From the NCBI RefSeq assembly GCF_003625485.1, contig NZ_RAIR01000003.1:248001-312000 (forward strand): DNA of 64,000 bases, given 5' to 3'. Shown here in pieces: positions 5,802-39,378 of this stretch. Every line of letters begins with the position of its first letter. Positions within the stretch are counted from its first letter, which is position 1. The notes beneath the pieces were generated by a model. The model was not told the origin of the DNA, searched no databases, and was given only the letters and a program-made list of their open reading frames with translations. Position numbers and translations under genes: made by a program. Source of the DNA: Butyrivibrio sp. CB08 (GTDB taxonomy: Bacteria; Bacillota; Clostridia; Lachnospirales; Lachnospiraceae).

Positions 5802-5813
5802 AGAGCAAAATAA

Positions 5814-5851
5814 AAGGCGGACCGGATTTTGATTCCGGACCGCCTTATTTT
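5814..5851. terminator. Bidirectional terminator between tdk and the phosphatase gene
   Basis: AAGGCGG-A-CCGGA pairs with TCCGG-A-CCGCCTT (5834-5846) through a 12-bp stem with one A-A mismatch. A tracts on the left and T tracts on the right allow it to serve both convergent genes. Confidence 0.85.
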
Positions 5852-5859
5852 TATGTGTA

Positions 5860-7527
5860 TCAGTTGTACTTAAAGCACAGCATTGTGATGTCGTCGAACT
5901 GAGGAGCTTCTCCAACGAAGAAGTCGATGGACTCTTTGACGTTCTTGCAGATTTCTTCCGGGTGGGCATCCGGCTTTTCGTTGAGGGCTGCCAGGAGTCT
6001 GTCGTTGCCAAAGAGGATGTTGTGGGCATCTGTGGCCTCTGTAACACCGTCGGTGTAGCAGAAAAGTGTATCGCCGTGATGGAGCTCAAATTCGTGCTCT
6101 TTAAACTTGATGCCTTCCATGGTAGCAACAGCAACGGAGTGCTTGTAGATAGAAAGCTCGAACTCACCGTTTGCTCTTCTGATGGCCGGGTGCTCGTGAC
6201 CTGCGTTTGCAGCAAGGCCCTTACCGGTCTTAACATCAAGGATTGCAAACCATACTGTTACAAAGAGCTCAGCGTCGTTACCTTCGCACAGCTGATCGTT
6301 GGCGTATGCAAGAACTTCTGCCGGGGTTCCGCCCATCATAGCGCGGTTCTTGATGAGAGTCTTTGCAATGACCATGAACAGGGCAGCAGGAACACCCTTT
6401 CCTGAAACGTCAGCTACAACAAGACCAAGGTGGTCTTCGTCAATGATAAAGAAATCGTAGAAGTCGCCTCCAACTTCCTTAGCCGGGTCCATGGATGCGT
6501 AGAGTTCGTACTCTTTTTTATCTGTAAATGTAGGGAAGATCCTTGGGAGCATATCCATCTGGATCTGAGTTGCTACGTTAAGCTCTGCGCCGATTCTCTC
6601 TTTTTCCGCAGTGACTTCTGTCAAATTGGCGATGTAGTCCTTGATGTCTCCCTCCATTTTCTTCATGGCGTCGGAGAGATTCTCAATCTCGTCACCGGTG
6701 GTGATCTGAAGTTCTGAGAAGGCGTTTCCATTGTCTTCCTGGATGTAGCTTGTTGCTGCGTCTGAAAGCTTGTTGATAGGATTAACAACGGCTTTTGTGA
6801 TGGCCAGGATGTAGATTATTGTAAGGATAAGAGCTATTGCCAGGGTAATGATAACCAGCATAATGGTGAATCCCTGGCTCTCTGCCTTGATGACGTTCAT
6901 GGAGATGTCAGCGCATCCAAAAGCTGCTACCTGACCGTTGCTGTCATATATTGGATATCCTGCAGAAACCAGCCATCCATACTCCGGGGTGTTTGTGATA
7001 TAAGCAGGAAAGCCTATGGTAGGGTCATCAATGACTCCATAGTTGACTTCATAGAGGGGATCAAAGTCGCCAGGATCATTAGCTACAGCAGATCCGTCTG
7101 CAACATAGAGAGTTATCTTGTCCTTTGGATAAGCATAGAGGATATAGACTGATTCTACGTCGTTGGCTCCGGCCAGCTTTTGCATCTTAAGGACTTCTTC
7201 CTGATATTCAGGTGTCTCTTTTAAATGCTGGAAGTTTGCAATGTACTTTTCATGGGCTGGAGTTCCCATGCCATCACTTCCGACCTTTTCATCCTGAGCC
7301 TCGTAGATCTCAACAATCTGATCCCTAAGGTCCCTTACGTGGTCTCCGTCGAGGGTAACAGCTACAGTATGTGCCATATCTGTAACCTTGTTCTCATACT
7401 CAGAGTCGATTATTGCAGTGGTGACCCTTGAAGTGACAGTTACCAATATTGCACCAAGGAGGACCACCATAAGGATGATTCCTATAACACTTTTTAGTCC
7501 CAGGGACATCTTTCTTGTTTTTCTCAT
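5860..7527 (-). CDS. Membrane sensor with HAMP and RsbU/SpoIIE-type PP2C phosphatase domain
   Basis: 555 residues. TM1 lies at about 11-33, an extracytoplasmic sensing region of about 185 residues follows (Cache-like, with YGWLVSAGYPIYDSNGQVAAFG), then TM2 at about 219-244, HAMP at 245-300, a coiled segment, and a PPM/SpoIIE phosphatase domain at 340-555. Metal-binding Asp motifs are visible: VGGDFYDFF (Asp355), VVADVSGKGVPAA (Asp373) and FDDITM near the C terminus. These enzymes dephosphorylate STAS-domain anti-anti-sigma proteins in partner switching. It is the last gene of a four-gene minus-strand operon and overlaps the MATE-ATPase gene by ATGA, which suggests it opposes the kinase-like domain there. 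No STAS gene is in this operon. Confidence 0.9.
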   Translation of the reverse strand: MRKTRKMSLGLKSVIGIILMVVLLGAILVTVTSRVTTAIIDSEYENKVTDMAHTVAVTLDGDHVRDLRDQIVEIYEAQDEKVGSDGMGTPAHEKYIANFQHLKETPEYQEEVLKMQKLAGANDVESVYILYAYPKDKITLYVADGSAVANDPGDFDPLYEVNYGVIDDPTIGFPAYITNTPEYGWLVSAGYPIYDSNGQVAAFGCADISMNVIKAESQGFTIMLVIITLAIALILTIIYILAITKAVVNPINKLSDAATSYIQEDNGNAFSELQITTGDEIENLSDAMKKMEGDIKDYIANLTEVTAEKERIGAELNVATQIQMDMLPRIFPTFTDKKEYELYASMDPAKEVGGDFYDFFIIDEDHLGLVVADVSGKGVPAALFMVIAKTLIKNRAMMGGTPAEVLAYANDQLCEGNDAELFVTVWFAILDVKTGKGLAANAGHEHPAIRRANGEFELSIYKHSVAVATMEGIKFKEHEFELHHGDTLFCYTDGVTEATDAHNILFGNDRLLAALNEKPDAHPEEICKNVKESIDFFVGEAPQFDDITMLCFKYN

Positions 7528-9281
7528 ATTTTCACCACCATTGTATTAAATCCTTGATATCTTCTATAGTAAAAAGATTTTGCTTTTTTCTTTATTACTT
7601 CCATTCCAAGGGCGTTGAAGTCGCTGTCTGAATCTGCGTCCATATCGCCGACATTTTTACCGCTCATATCAAAAGGATTGAAGGTTACTGCATTATCTCT
7701 TATGTGCATTGAGAAACCTTTTTCTCCGTGGTTTACAAGGGTCAGCTGGATACGTCCGTTATTACCGTTCATCTTGGCAAATCCGTTGTTGATGATTGCC
7801 GAACAGACTTCTTCGATGGTCATCTGAACGTAGTACATCTGCTTGGGATTGGCTTCCCATTTCTCAAGGAATGCCTCAACCTCAGGAAGCACGGCTGCTA
7901 TGTCATCGGATTTACCCTGAAGGGTAGTGGTATAGACCTTGTCGGAATCTATGCGCTTTGTCTTTTGCATAAAGAACTTCACATAGAAGCTTGCGATGAT
8001 AAAGCTTACGACCTCTGTAATAGCGTAGGTGTACCAGAATGCATACTTGCCAAAGTGGATCATCAGAAGCATTACAGGTACCAGAACGAAAAATCCTCGA
8101 AGGGTAGCTATCACAAAGGCTGGAAGAGGAATCTCTCTTGCGGTGAAAGCGTTTGACATAAGGATGTTAAAGCCTGCAAACAGTATGCAGAGACCAAAGG
8201 CCCGCAGGGCGTGGACTCCATATGATACAGCGTAGGAATCCTTTATTCCAAACAGCCCCAGTATCTGCTCTGCGAAGACTATGATAAAGCTCATAAGCAC
8301 CACAGAGGTGATTATTCCGACATTTCTTGTAAGTACCTGGGCGTCATCGCTTTCCTTGTAATTGCACTCAGCCTCGTAGGTACTAAGGATTGGCTGTGAT
8401 GCCTGGCTTATCGCACCGAATACGTAGCCCATGAGATAGGACAGAGACTGAACAATCTCAAATATAGCTACGCCGACCTCTCCAGCCAGCTTAAACAGTG
8501 CATTGTTTCCAATCCAGATGAATACAAAGGTATATATGTAAGTGATACAGGATGAAAATCCTGTCTTGTAGCATTTGAAAACGTCGCCAAATCTGGGATG
8601 AGCAGGGAAGAGTTTAAGATGTGACTGCCTTCCGTAGATGAAGTACAGCTCAACTCCACTGGTGATCATAAGACCGATGAGTGTCGCCATGGCGGCGCCC
8701 ATAACTCCCAGTCCGCAGAACAGAACAAGAATGATGTTCAGAGAGAAGTCGCAGGTGTTACCAACCTGGGAGGATATTGAAGATTCCTTGTAGAGGTCAT
8801 CATTTCTCATGTAGTAGCCAACAGTGTAGCCAAAGAAGAAAAATGGTGCTGCTGCGAAAAGGAACCTTAGGTAAATGATGGTAGCTGTGAACAGCTTGGC
8901 GTTATTTGGGTCTGCGCCAAGGATCCTTGCGAAGAATTCCACGAAGATGTTTCCAAGTATCGCAATGGCTACGCCCATTATCAGGATGGTGACAATAACA
9001 CCCTGGAAGTCGCTTATGGCTTCCTGTTCCTTACCTTTTGCCATTTTCTTGGAGTATCTTACAGCTCCTCCAAGTCCAAAGGAGTGGGCGATCACGTTGT
9101 AGATCATGAACACCGGGATGGCAAAGGCAATGGCTGCAAGTCCAATGGCTCCCATCCTGTTTCCTACAACAAGGGCATCTGCCATGTCCGCCACTGACAG
9201 CACCAGGGCTGACGAGATGGCTGGAATGTACTGCCTCATAAACATTTGCTTTGTAAATGATGATATCCTGCGTCTTATCAT
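7524..9281 (-). CDS. MATE-family transporter fused to an RsbW-like HATPase domain
   Basis: 585 residues from the chosen ATG at 9281. Residues 1-440 form about 12 hydrophobic spans in two halves of a MATE exporter (first half with VADMADALVVGNRMGAIGLA, second half from FKCYKTGFSS). Residues about 450-585 are soluble and resemble the GHKL ATPase of anti-sigma kinases: an N-box-like IEEVCSAIINNGF, an ATP-lid Asp motif IRDNAVTFNPF, and the closing GMEVIKKKAKSF...YYRRY pattern. An upstream in-frame start at 9317 would overlap the DUF2156 gene by 40 bp. The ATG at 9281 has an AGGAAGG site and makes a typical ATGA overlap. It is coupled on both sides to DUF2156 and the PP2C phosphatase gene. Transport substrate unknown. 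Confidence 0.87.
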   Translation of the reverse strand: MIRRRISSFTKQMFMRQYIPAISSALVLSVADMADALVVGNRMGAIGLAAIAFAIPVFMIYNVIAHSFGLGGAVRYSKKMAKGKEQEAISDFQGVIVTILIMGVAIAILGNIFVEFFARILGADPNNAKLFTATIIYLRFLFAAAPFFFFGYTVGYYMRNDDLYKESSISSQVGNTCDFSLNIILVLFCGLGVMGAAMATLIGLMITSGVELYFIYGRQSHLKLFPAHPRFGDVFKCYKTGFSSCITYIYTFVFIWIGNNALFKLAGEVGVAIFEIVQSLSYLMGYVFGAISQASQPILSTYEAECNYKESDDAQVLTRNVGIITSVVLMSFIIVFAEQILGLFGIKDSYAVSYGVHALRAFGLCILFAGFNILMSNAFTAREIPLPAFVIATLRGFFVLVPVMLLMIHFGKYAFWYTYAITEVVSFIIASFYVKFFMQKTKRIDSDKVYTTTLQGKSDDIAAVLPEVEAFLEKWEANPKQMYYVQMTIEEVCSAIINNGFAKMNGNNGRIQLTLVNHGEKGFSMHIRDNAVTFNPFDMSGKNVGDMDADSDSDFNALGMEVIKKKAKSFYYRRYQGFNTMVVKI

Positions 9282-10150
9282 AGCTGCCTTCCTGTGTACA
9301 TATCTATCATTGAGCACGGATGCATGTACTGCTTGGCTGTTCTAAGTCCCTGGATCCCCAGGTCCTCTTCCCAGTTGAAGAATGTAACTTCCTCTGGCTG
9401 CATCCGCGAGAACTCCTGTCTCATGTAGTACTGAAGTCCGTGGAGATAGTTGTCGGTTTTCTGCATGCAGCAGTCCACGGTGTTATCTGATAACCTGTAT
9501 CCCAAAACCGCAGCGCTTGGAGCGCCGTCCATATACAGAACAATTCCCGAGATATCAAGCTCATCGAACTCATCAAGGATCAGCTCTGTGGCTGCCTTGT
9601 CCATAACATCTATGTAGTTCTCTTTACTTTTGCTCCAGGCATCGAAGATGGTCCTCACATCACCAAGAAGCGCCTTTGAAAAGAGCTTTGTCTCCATGTC
9701 ATGTTCTCTGCAAAGCTGTCTGACATAATCTCTTTTTCTGGAAAAACCACCACCTGGAAGGTTCTCTATGGTATTTCGGTCGTAGATGTACTCGCTGTCA
9801 TCAGGAGCAGGGTCTGTGACAAACTTCCCCGGGAAATACTGCTGCAGGAAAAAGGTATCTTCCTTGGTGACATACCTTAGGATAAGGTTTCCTTCTTTAA
9901 GTACGTCCTCTATAAAGCGCCTTTTTTCCTCATCCTCCCCAACAGGGAAGAACCAGGTGTTTTCGCCTTCATCATCGATATGGGCTGCGTACATGTTGCC
10001 AACTAAGTAGACGGACAGAGACATGTCTTTTGCCCAGATATACAGAGTCTTGTATGCATGAGCGCTGTCGCCCTTACCATAGGAGTCGTAGATACGGCTG
10101 ATCTCGCTCTCCAGGGACGGTTCAATTGTCTGAGTTGTTATGTTGGGCAT
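9278..10150 (-). CDS. DUF2156 (GNAT-fold, MprF/LPG-synthase-like) protein
   Basis: 290 residues. The sequence matches the DUF2156 pattern: an N-terminal half with WFFPVGE, the central YIYDRNTIENLPGGGFSRKR segment that in the family precedes the acyl-acceptor site, and the C-terminal NWEEDLGIQGLRTAKQYMHP block. The family is related to the aminoacyl-transferase domain of lysyl-phosphatidylglycerol synthase (MprF) but lacks its membrane domain here. Substrates of stand-alone members are mostly unknown. It starts 3 bp after the formyltransferase stop and overlaps the MATE-fusion gene by 4 bp, so it is part of a fully coupled operon. A tailoring acyl/aminoacyl transfer is inferred. Confidence 0.85.
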   Translation of the reverse strand: MPNITTQTIEPSLESEISRIYDSYGKGDSAHAYKTLYIWAKDMSLSVYLVGNMYAAHIDDEGENTWFFPVGEDEEKRRFIEDVLKEGNLILRYVTKEDTFFLQQYFPGKFVTDPAPDDSEYIYDRNTIENLPGGGFSRKRDYVRQLCREHDMETKLFSKALLGDVRTIFDAWSKSKENYIDVMDKAATELILDEFDELDISGIVLYMDGAPSAAVLGYRLSDNTVDCCMQKTDNYLHGLQYYMRQEFSRMQPEEVTFFNWEEDLGIQGLRTAKQYMHPCSMIDMYTGRQL

Positions 10151-10153
10151 AAT

Positions 10154-10966
10154 CTATATACATCTAGCCTTAGGGCTTGATATATAGCCTCCTTCTATGG
10201 AAAAGAAATTCTGGATGCCGGCAGCATCTTCCGGCTCTCCCTTGTGGGCAGTGGCTCCTATTAGCTCGTATTCCTGCCCGGTTTTGGTATCTATGTAGTA
10301 GCATTCATAGCTGTAAAAAGCGCGAAGGATAAGGTCTGCCTTTTCAAAGGAATCTGTGTCCCTTACGGTGTAGTCCTCTTTTTCTGGCATCTCCCAGTAC
10401 TCTGCGATGGAGTTGTCCTGAGGTGTGGCGTTGTCCCAGAGGTTGTCAAAGTCTGAAACCAGCTGGCGGACCATGGCTGGGATAAGGGTGTTCTGGCGTT
10501 CTGTAAGGGTTATAAGGTTGTCCGTGTCGGGGTAGACAGGAATCTTTTCCCGAAGGATAATGTCCCCTTCATCCAGGCCCTTAGTCATGCGGTGCATGGT
10601 GATCCCGCTCTCTGTAAGTCCCTTTATTATGGTAAGTGGCATTGGCCATGCGCCTCTTCCAAGGGGAAGATAGGCCGGGTGGGTGTTTACGATGCGAAGC
10701 TCCTCTATAACAGGGATCACGTGGTAATACCCTCCAACAAGCACAAAATCACAGCCCATAGCAACAAGGTCGTACAGATCGTCCTGTGTTATGCGCTCCA
10801 TCTGAATCGGGATATTGTGCTCTTTGGCAAAAGAGACTGTCTTTGTGTTGAACTCAGTAATATTATCGGTTTTACATGTAAAAACCTTTATTATCTCGCA
10901 TCCTGTGTCATAAAGACTTGTGAGCACGGGATACAGGATATCAATACCTACGCAGGCTGCCTTCAT
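10154..10966 (-). CDS. Formyltransferase-family protein (Fmt/PurN/ArnA-N-like)
   Basis: About 270 residues. It carries the formyltransferase core: NTHPAYLPLGRGAWPMPLTI with Asn and His of the catalytic triad, then GITMHRMTKGLDEGDIILRE with the catalytic Asp region. Such enzymes move a formyl group from 10-formyl-tetrahydrofolate to an amine. A true fmt, with its C-terminal tRNA-binding domain and neighbouring def, is not suggested. Length and context (DUF2156, MATE exporter) fit modification of an amino sugar, amino acid or nucleotide-linked sugar. The ATG at 10966 is chosen; a TTG at 10975 in the same frame is possible and neither ribosome site is strong. It is the first gene of the four-gene operon. 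Confidence 0.8.
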   Translation of the reverse strand: MKAACVGIDILYPVLTSLYDTGCEIIKVFTCKTDNITEFNTKTVSFAKEHNIPIQMERITQDDLYDLVAMGCDFVLVGGYYHVIPVIEELRIVNTHPAYLPLGRGAWPMPLTIIKGLTESGITMHRMTKGLDEGDIILREKIPVYPDTDNLITLTERQNTLIPAMVRQLVSDFDNLWDNATPQDNSIAEYWEMPEKEDYTVRDTDSFEKADLILRAFYSYECYYIDTKTGQEYELIGATAHKGEPEDAAGIQNFFSIEGGYISSPKARCI

Positions 10967-11149: not shown

Positions 11150-12202
11150 ATGAAAATTGCACAAAGTACCGTAAACCTGGCTTCGGGTCACCACTACCAG
11201 GAGGAACTAAACGTGACCATGAGAAGCCAAACCGTGACAAGGAGTGCTTTCCTTGAAAGCCTTCAGACTCAGGAAAAGAAGATGGATCAGCTGGAGCTTA
11301 CTGATGTAAGCACAGACGGTGAGCCCATCGGAAGTGACAGCTACATGTCCCTTAAACCATCAAAGTCTGAGTATCTGACGCCTCAGTCCAGCACGCTGGA
11401 GGATCAGATAATGGAACTAAGGAACATGCTGCTTGAGAGGATCTTAAGCCTTCTTCAGATCTTTGGCGGAGATTCCCAGAGCAGAGGCTATTCAAAGACC
11501 TTGTCAAACACCGCAAACATGCTGACTGACAACATGTTTGTAAAAAAGACCACTATTGAAGTCACACATGTGGAGAGCGAGGAGACCACCTTTAATGGCA
11601 CTGGAACAGCTCTTACAGAGGATGGCAGAGTTATCGACTTTGGAGTCAGCTTCTCCATGTCAAGGCGCCTTTGCCAGTACGCCGGAATCGATGTGACAAG
11701 TGCTGTAAGCCTTATCGATCCGCTGGTGATAAACGTAGGTAGTGGGGTAACAAGTATCAGTGACCAGAGTTTCTTTTTCGATCTGGATGCTGATGGGACG
11801 GAAGAAAAGATCTCAAATCTGGGAGAGGGCTCGGGATTCCTTGCACTGGATCTAAACAGTGATGGGAAGATAAACGATGGCTCGGAGCTTTTTGGAACAA
11901 AGTCGGGGGACGGCTTTAAGGACTTGTCGATCTATGATGAGGATCAAAACGGATGGATCGATGAGAATGACAAGGTCTATGATCAGCTTAAGATCTGGAT
12001 CAGAAATGAAGATGGGACTGACACCCTTCTTGGACTTAAGGAAGCGGACGTTGGAGCGATCCACCTTGGCAGGGCAGAAACAGAGTTTTCCAATTTTGGA
12101 AGTGATTTTGCCATGAACGCCATGATAAGATCGTCAGGCGTATTCCTAAGAGAGAGCGGAGGCGTTGGGACCGTGCAGCAGGTAGATCTGGCTGCGCTAT
12201 AA
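11150..12202 (+). CDS. Protein with EF-hand/haemolysin-type Ca-binding repeats
   Basis: 350 residues, no signal peptide and no membrane span. Residues 1-200 are unassigned (Gln/Ser/Thr-rich, amphipathic helix near 84-106). The C-terminal part holds Asp-rich loops that look like calcium ligands: FFDLDADGTEEK (about 209-220), LDLNSDGKINDGSELFG (about 233-249) and DEDQNGWIDENDK (about 263-275). This order is seen in a broad family of bacterial Ca-binding proteins, many of them secreted without a classical signal. AGGAGG lies 5 bp before the ATG. The possible SigD promoter upstream suggests a link to motility or the cell surface. Function is not known. Confidence 0.75.
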   Translation: MKIAQSTVNLASGHHYQEELNVTMRSQTVTRSAFLESLQTQEKKMDQLELTDVSTDGEPIGSDSYMSLKPSKSEYLTPQSSTLEDQIMELRNMLLERILSLLQIFGGDSQSRGYSKTLSNTANMLTDNMFVKKTTIEVTHVESEETTFNGTGTALTEDGRVIDFGVSFSMSRRLCQYAGIDVTSAVSLIDPLVINVGSGVTSISDQSFFFDLDADGTEEKISNLGEGSGFLALDLNSDGKINDGSELFGTKSGDGFKDLSIYDEDQNGWIDENDKVYDQLKIWIRNEDGTDTLLGLKEADVGAIHLGRAETEFSNFGSDFAMNAMIRSSGVFLRESGGVGTVQQVDLAAL

Positions 12203-39208: not shown

Positions 39209-39316
39209 GGTCGTCAAAAAGACGCCATGCCGAAGACAGCAGGTGTTCCATATGAAATGTATGTGGAACGTAAAGTGTAAGCGCCTGCCGAGGAAAAGTT
39301 TAGATTAGACTTTTAT
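39209..39316 (+). promoter_or_regulatory. Ribosomal protein L10 leader
   Basis: The segment contains GCCGAAGACAGCAGGTG (about 39227-39244) and, after a variable hairpin TTCCATATG...TATGTGGAA, AAGCGCCTGCCGAGG. These are the conserved parts of the L10 leader, where the L10(L12)4 complex binds its own mRNA. It is followed by an attenuator. Confidence 0.88.
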
Positions 39317-39347
39317 GCCTCTCGATGTCTTCGAGGGGTATTTTTTT
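39317..39347 (+). terminator. Attenuator of the L10 leader
   Basis: CCTCTCGA and TCGAGGGG (39318-39338) form a stem followed by T residues (39341-39347), about 30 bp before rplJ. Binding of L10 to the upstream leader is expected to favour this terminator. Confidence 0.85.
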
Positions 39348-39378
39348 CGGCGGTTAAATTCTATAAGGAGGTAAAAAG

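Follow-up and report, generated by a model that had tools for sequence, protein, structure and literature searches.

A four-gene operon on the minus strand of a 64,000-nucleotide stretch of Butyrivibrio sp. CB08 (assembly GCF_003625485.1, contig NZ_RAIR01000003.1, positions 248,001 to 312,000; the whole stretch is referred to below as the window) is part of a conserved module found in many Clostridia. The operon runs from position 10966 to position 5860 of the window and encodes, in order of transcription, a formyltransferase (FMT), a DUF2156 protein, a MATE exporter with a C-terminal GHKL domain (the tail), and a SpoIIE-type phosphatase (Table 1). Partner switching is known mainly for the control of sigma factors, with a few other outputs. 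It is proposed here that a partner-switching circuit controls the exporter in place of a sigma factor, the window operon being the Butyrivibrio form of the Clostridia module, a reading whose chances we hold to be evenly balanced. A more specific version is tentative, its likelihood falling somewhat short of even: the tail would be a pseudokinase docking domain, through which partner switching, on an outside signal, gates the exporter of a formyl- or acetyl-capped aminoacyl metabolite derived from tRNA-dependent chemistry, and the module would represent a new class of output.

Conservation of the gene neighborhood

Among 299 genomes of the family, eight full-length fusions of this branch (the window's included) and a ninth truncated at a contig end were found; all nine adjoin a SpoIIE gene together with FMT, DUF2156, or both. 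A scan of named genomes with the C-terminal motif [FM][YFQ]Y[RQ][RNQ][YF]xG[FY]N gave a further 80 loci (the best 80 of 138 relatives), labeled mostly Lachnospiraceae, Oscillospiraceae, Christensenellaceae or other Clostridia, with a few Synergistaceae or Erysipelotrichia bins; the two fusions in bins labeled Synergistaceae (L116 and L119) reflect either wrong binning or transfer. The motif search supplies 80 of the 89 loci, which in part builds in the conservation of the motif itself and biases the set toward window-like proteins; neither the N-box nor the G1 position considered below falls inside the motif. The 89 loci form 71 groups at 85% MATE identity, of which 55 with at least 2.5 kb on each flank were counted and 16 with short flanks were left out. 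Neighbors were counted on the same strand with a midpoint no more than 6 kb away, and genes were labeled with hidden Markov models (HMMs) built for this analysis (E 1e-5; RsbW, 1e-8); in its later rounds the RsbW HMM drew in MATE tails, and RsbW neighbors were counted without the anchor MATE gene. Two loci from a profile search (L178 and L179), held outside these counts, likewise carry FMT and SpoIIE.

A SpoIIE gene lies near the fusion in 54 of the 55 groups, and within 1.2 kb of it in 53. DUF2156 is present in 41 groups, FMT in 36 and a GNAT-family gene in 11, every one of the last with DUF2156 as well; at least one of these three tailoring enzymes is found in 52. FMT occurs without DUF2156 in 11 groups, and the two are fused into one open reading frame (ORF) in three (L053, L054, and L110). 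The preliminary description of the window had let its idea of a single system hang on whether homologous operons keep the four genes together, and joint retention is not rare: FMT and DUF2156 occur jointly in 25 of the 55 groups, in each case with SpoIIE and the fusion.

Chance clustering of unrelated genes in Butyrivibrio can be given virtually no credence and is rejected. Of 21 ordinary MATE genes used as controls, none has any of these neighbors, in flanks of at most 1.5 kb; the fairer comparison, SpoIIE within 1.2 kb, gives 53 of 55 groups versus 0 of 21. The FMT–DUF2156 gene fusions argue in the same direction, as does the divergence of the loci: pairwise MATE identity drops to about 30% among loci that share neighbors, and the gene set is therefore not due to recent shared descent.

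The exporter and its RsbW-like tail

By fold and sequence profile (Pfam MatE, 4.6e-22) the predicted exporter falls within the MATE class. Its fold is complete in the structure model, where the matches include PfMATE (4mlb, Z 40.5 over 433 residues, root-mean-square deviation 2.8) and DinF-BH (4lz6, Z 39.8 over 429 residues, root-mean-square deviation 2.9) and, more weakly, the lipid flippases WzxE (Z 31–33) and MurJ (Z 20–28). Asp35 is invariant in an alignment of 53 sequences.

The tail only just passes the Pfam cut-off for HATPase_c_2 (1.3e-6; 28.8 versus 27.4 bits). It is assigned to GHKL by homology, judged from profile comparison with the RsbW domains encoded in the clusters (hhalign, 98.1%, E 1e-13) and from the order of secondary structure elements in the model (β-α-α-β-β-lid-α-β-β), which is that expected of a GHKL/RsbW fold; SpoIIAB is its best sequence match in the PDB (E 0.0044). 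A fold search with the whole MATE model, in which the MATE domain dominates, returned no GHKL structure among the matches listed. The GHKL fold that the preliminary description saw in the C terminus is thus borne out by homology to RsbW and SpoIIAB, and its label of "kinase-like" holds for the fold; for kinase activity, the label is doubtful. The N-box Asn, present in 62 of 62 neighboring RsbW domains, occurs in 0 of 89 tails, where the column reads Ala in 67, Val in 9, Ser in 6, Thr in 4, and Leu in 3. The Gly of the G1 motif (DxG), again found in 62 of 62 RsbW domains, is replaced in every tail (Ala in 88, Asn in one), and the G2 Gly-Gly pair of all 62 RsbW domains retains Gly at its two positions in only 1 and 3 of the 89 tails. 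The Gly that follows this pair, the N-box Glu and the G1 Arg-Asp are kept in 89 of 89 (L179, outside the counts, has Tyr at the G1 Asp column). We take the N-box Glu and Asn to have the roles of Glu46 and Asn50 of SpoIIAB.

Loss of these residues has not been accompanied by decay. The tail is 71% identical to that of L098 and the MATE body 68%, with nonsynonymous divergence of 0.21 versus 0.23 (synonymous divergence is near or at saturation), and 12 of the 28 invariant columns of the 53-sequence alignment fall in the tail, four of these inside the search motif; the tail is conserved like the MATE body and is therefore not decaying. From its sequence, it looks like a pseudokinase.

The residues that survive could also be read as those of a nucleotide (energy) sensor, in which ATP/ADP would tune the exporter directly and the phosphatase, merely co-expressed, would act on another protein. 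Some nucleotide binding could survive with Glu491, the G1 Arg-Asp and one G2 Gly kept in all 89 tails, and the groups that lack both STAS and RsbW nearby (15 of 55) would fit such a sensor; the uniform absence of the Asn and of the G1 Gly, together with the near-absence of the G2 pair, speaks against it, and it would have no need of SpoIIE, found in 54 of 55 groups, or of STAS, found in 31. We consider this explanation unlikely.

STAS, RsbW, and phosphatase components

An ORF of about 98–103 residues in the clusters of 31 of the 55 groups encodes a STAS protein. In L050 it matches Pfam STAS at 2.1e-16 and the anti-sigma factor antagonist superfamily above cut-off. The second Ser of its SSAGLR motif, presumably the phosphosite by analogy, is Ser in 51 of 52 copies and Thr in one. 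A canonical RsbW-type domain is encoded in 38 of the 55 clusters, either free or fused to the phosphatase (fused in 20 groups), and STAS, RsbW, and SpoIIE occur jointly in 29. The preliminary description, which found no STAS or sigma factor gene nearby, was right for the window locus: no ORF within 6 kb of the MATE gene carries a STAS or RsbW label, and the genome's 12 matches to a sigma B/F/G profile all lie off the window's contig (C20). For the system as a whole, a STAS protein is probably available: one is encoded in the clusters of 31 groups, and others elsewhere in the window genome.

In the window genome, a STAS–RsbW pair lies on contig C24 and a second STAS gene on contig C19; these STAS proteins are 71–76% identical to the cluster STAS, and the C24 RsbW is 63% identical to the cluster RsbW. 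On the MATE tree, the next branch outside the Butyrivibrio clade (L106) has STAS upstream of FMT. Among 10 independent pairs on this tree, STAS and RsbW change in the same way in about five and in opposite ways in none (median p 0.06), so that their joint loss is only suggestive. Elsewhere in the window genome, STAS and SpoIIE-type phosphatase genes stand divergently on a small contig (L058:4063-6156, contig C11); across 20 kb around them there is no RsbW match.

All four Asp residues of the phosphatase (D355, D373, D493, and D546 in the window), which we assume to be metal ligands, are present in 83 of 96 SpoIIE-labeled ORFs near fusions. The remaining 13 comprise five cut by contig ends and eight degenerate copies; seven of the eight adjoin an intact copy, and one (L140) lies near a contig end. 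Pseudophosphatases that have lost active-site Asp residues are seen at L164:9763-11793 and in the first SpoIIE of L155, L163, L168, L171, and L174, six loci in which FMT was not found and DUF2156 follows RsbW; L133 and L140 each have one further degenerate SpoIIE-like copy. The preliminary description had called the window protein a membrane sensor phosphatase. The phosphatase part of that name is upheld by the SpoIIE match (Pfam 1.8e-46) and the four Asp; the sensor part draws on hydrophobic stretches, weak matches to sensor kinases, and a sub-threshold match to dCache_1 (15.8 bits, cut-off 45), from which the protein is probably membrane-bound with an outside segment that scores under every Pfam cut-off.

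With these components at hand, the module might be an ordinary partner switch acting on transcription, in which MATE would do no more than anchor an RsbW-like anti-sigma domain at the membrane. The homology of the tail to SpoIIAB and RsbW is what such a switch would have, and yet the tail is without the kinase residues, the model shows a full MATE fold with its invariant Asp35, and tailoring enzymes travel with the cluster. In addition, no protein of the window genome passes the TIGR02980 cut-off for sigma B/F/G (best 130.8 versus 234.35 bits; the profile covers these sigma classes). This alternative is very improbable.

Tailoring enzymes

The window FMT consists of the N domain only and scores 65.5 against the fmt cut-off of 201.5, below that for a methionyl-tRNA formyltransferase; the genome's other formyltransferase (329 amino acids) has both Formyl_trans_N and Formyl_trans_C. 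The nearest PDB entries to the FMT profile are methionyl-tRNA formyltransferases, with purine and sugar formyltransferases next. In the cluster FMTs, the Asn and His are present in 54 of 54 and the Asp in 53, with one gap; the roles of this Asn-His-Asp set are presumed to be those of known formyltransferases. The GNAT neighbors are Acetyltransf_9 proteins in the two tested, and their position varies by locus: the gene may precede DUF2156, lie between MATE and SpoIIE, or follow SpoIIE. No locus of the 89 has both FMT and GNAT, and the MATE tree requires at least nine changes between the states FMT, GNAT, and neither; this suggests that the two caps are alternatives for one kind of amine.

The DUF2156 protein (290 amino acids) passes a Pfam cut-off only for LPG_synthase_C. 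Its model (predicted local distance difference test score, pLDDT, 92) resembles the synthase domains of MprF (Z 17–19), FemX/FemA (Z 13–15), and the aminoacyl-tRNA-dependent peptide synthases Sba18/Sbb17 (Z 16, 11–14% identity), two of whose three entries hold streptothrisamine. GNAT-fold aminoacyl-tRNA-dependent transferases work in antibiotic pathways, as described in the accessible part of PMC12945691. On the fold match, the DUF2156 protein would be an aminoacyl-tRNA-dependent transferase.

The same fold match raises the prospect of a split MprF-like system, in which DUF2156 would aminoacylate a lipid, FMT or GNAT would cap it, the MATE protein would flip it outward, and the partner switch would tune flipping. 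We judge this improbable. The synthase-domain fold and the presence of WzxE and MurJ among the exporter's fold matches are in keeping with it, but PfMATE and DinF-BH (Z 40) match the exporter better than either flippase, and capping the amine would cancel the charge behind the known role of MprF. Moreover, soluble double-GNAT enzymes make free antibiotics too (PMC12945691, accessible part).

Proposed mechanism

In the proposed circuit of exporter control by partner switching, the fullest clusters would supply six parts: a capping enzyme (FMT or GNAT), DUF2156, MATE with an RsbW-derived tail, STAS, RsbW, and SpoIIE. RsbW would phosphorylate STAS, and the SpoIIE-type phosphatase, on an outside signal, would dephosphorylate it; unphosphorylated STAS may then dock on the catalytically dead RsbW-like tail, by which the exporter would be opened (or closed). 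On the biosynthetic side, an amino acid would be passed from aminoacyl-tRNA to an acceptor by DUF2156 and its amine then capped by the formyl- or acetyltransferase, after which the capped aminoacyl product would leave through the MATE part. In the clade of the window, STAS and RsbW would act in trans from outside the cluster. Export of a modified product under phospho-control, the hypothesis offered by the preliminary description, would be retained in this scheme.

Several observations weigh against this proposal. Neither STAS nor RsbW lies within 6 kb in 15 of the 55 groups; five of these are all of the counted Butyrivibrio-clade groups, the window's among them, and the other ten are scattered. 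The C24 RsbW that would serve in trans is present in 34 of 41 genomes of the genus and is therefore not dedicated to this operon and must have another job, a strong match to the MATE tail being found in one of at least 17 genomes of the genus. The chemistry is not fixed: DUF2156 is the only tailoring enzyme in five of the 55 groups, and FMT, GNAT, and DUF2156 are all absent in three (L120, L132, and L151), of which L132 is without SpoIIE as well. The best match and closest solved relative of the DUF2156 model, 2hqy (Z 32), is a protein of unknown function. Finally, 18 of 24 other MATE–HATPase fusions keep the N-box Asn, so its loss marks this branch and not all such fusions.

If the proposal is true, the module would clearly exemplify both a partner switch redirected to the control of transport and a bacterial pseudokinase of the GHKL type retained for binding, and the exchange of FMT for GNAT would point to a so far undescribed capped amine that has a dedicated exporter. 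In the titles and abstract openings of the open-licence literature, no description was found of a MATE–GHKL fusion or of its link to SpoIIE, formyltransferase, or DUF2156.

Operon layout and genomic context

The tight four-gene packing given in the preliminary description was confirmed throughout, in coordinates, in the 3-base gap between the FMT stop and the DUF2156 gene, and in the ATGA overlaps at both the DUF2156/MATE and the MATE/SpoIIE junctions. FMT starts at ATG, with an alternative TTG possible 9 bases upstream, and stops at TAG; it matches Formyl_trans_N at 2.2e-16, and the DUF2156 protein matches LPG_synthase_C (formerly DUF2156) at 4.5e-22. The hairpin downstream of the operon was not listed by a simple terminator scan, probably because of an internal mismatch.

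Table 1. Features of the operon and its 3′ flank, in window coordinates
Feature	Position	Strand	Description
Formyltransferase	10154..10966	-	Formyl_trans_N, without a Formyl_trans_C match; Asn-His-Asp set present
DUF2156 / LPG_synthase_C protein	9278..10150	-	Model with the double GNAT fold of the MprF synthase domain
MATE exporter with C-terminal GHKL domain	7524..9281	-	585 amino acids from ATG at 9281; closest folds PfMATE and DinF-BH
GHKL (RsbW-like) tail of the MATE protein	7527..7946	-	Ala495 (codon 7797-7799) at the N-box Asn site; Glu491 kept
SpoIIE/RsbU-type PP2C phosphatase	5860..7527	-	Probably membrane-bound; Asp355, Asp373, Asp493, and Asp546 present
Intrinsic-terminator-like hairpin, 3′ of the last stop	5807..5851	-	-22.7 kcal/mol, z -6.0; T-rich tail

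The window belongs to a genome of 3.54 Mb. By the MATE-fusion protein, its nearest named relatives are Butyrivibrio bins, the best at 69% identity over the full length (among the best 80 of 138). A promoter scan was uninformative (7 sites versus 8.3 expected), and no RNA leader was detected at the operon, the sole match above an Rfam gathering threshold in the window being an ordinary ribosomal protein L10 leader (RF00557) at 39212-39355. The divergent neighbor of the operon (11150-12202) encodes 350 amino acids with no Pfam match over cut-off and a weak match to dockerin (12.6 bits, cut-off 22.9). At L114:2673-7057, two ABC transporters of 728 amino acids adjoin the cluster; one of them carries the peptidase C39 domain known from bacteriocin exporters. 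ORF pairs of similar size occur at L150 and L151. A role in anti-phage defense was considered and rejected: a PADLOC search with four window proteins and three from relatives, seven in all, gave no match at E 0.01.

Comparison with known systems

Among the closest parallels are the RsbU–RsbV–RsbW and SpoIIE–SpoIIAA–SpoIIAB systems of B. subtilis, which share with the module a PP2C phosphatase, an SSAGLR-type STAS protein and a GHKL kinase; 29 groups, as noted above, have the full trio in the cluster. The module differs in adding a degenerate RsbW-like domain fused to MATE and tailoring enzymes in the operon, and in a window genome with no sigma B/F/G over cut-off.

Other fusions of MATE with HATPase_c_2 in Clostridia have the same two-domain layout; within the stretches fetched, SpoIIE-labeled genes occur at 6 of 22 of their loci, DUF2156 at 0 of 22, and an FMT-labeled gene at two, one of which is a two-domain Fmt. 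The window genome has a second such fusion (L059:14436-17090, contig C19, minus strand), with an added HD-CE domain (PF24391), between genes for peptide deformylase and a two-domain formyltransferase; frames of 884–889 amino acids with the MATE–tail layout, similar in length to it, occur in two other genomes (L183 and L190).

MprF, the aminoacyl-phosphatidylglycerol synthase/flippase, likewise sets the same transferase fold beside a membrane exporter. It has another membrane domain and is not known to work with a formyltransferase or a partner switch, and the fusion of synthase and flippase domains that characterizes MprF is not found in the window DUF2156 protein. Alike in build to the latter are Orf11 (PMC12945691, accessible part) and Sba18/Sbb17, likewise soluble double-GNAT proteins, which add amino acids to small molecules.

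Two further systems offer a comparison of outputs. In MlaB–MlaF, a STAS protein acts on a transporter, according to the accessible part of PMC7367683. The transporter there is of the ABC type and here MATE. To our knowledge, MlaB–MlaF has no kinase/phosphatase pair or RsbW-like domain. In the SiaABCD system of Pseudomonas aeruginosa, the phosphatase SiaA and the kinase SiaB set the phosphorylation of SiaC, and unphosphorylated SiaC binds and activates a diguanylate cyclase, a non-sigma output (PMC8457831, accessible part). As far as that text goes, the likeness is that the partner switches an enzyme directly and not a sigma factor, and the difference is that the output is a diguanylate cyclase, where the module has a transporter with a kinase-derived domain; against the SiaA model, whose cut-off is 700, the window phosphatase reaches 86 bits. 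SiaABCD and similar non-sigma outputs make control of an exporter by partner switching plausible.

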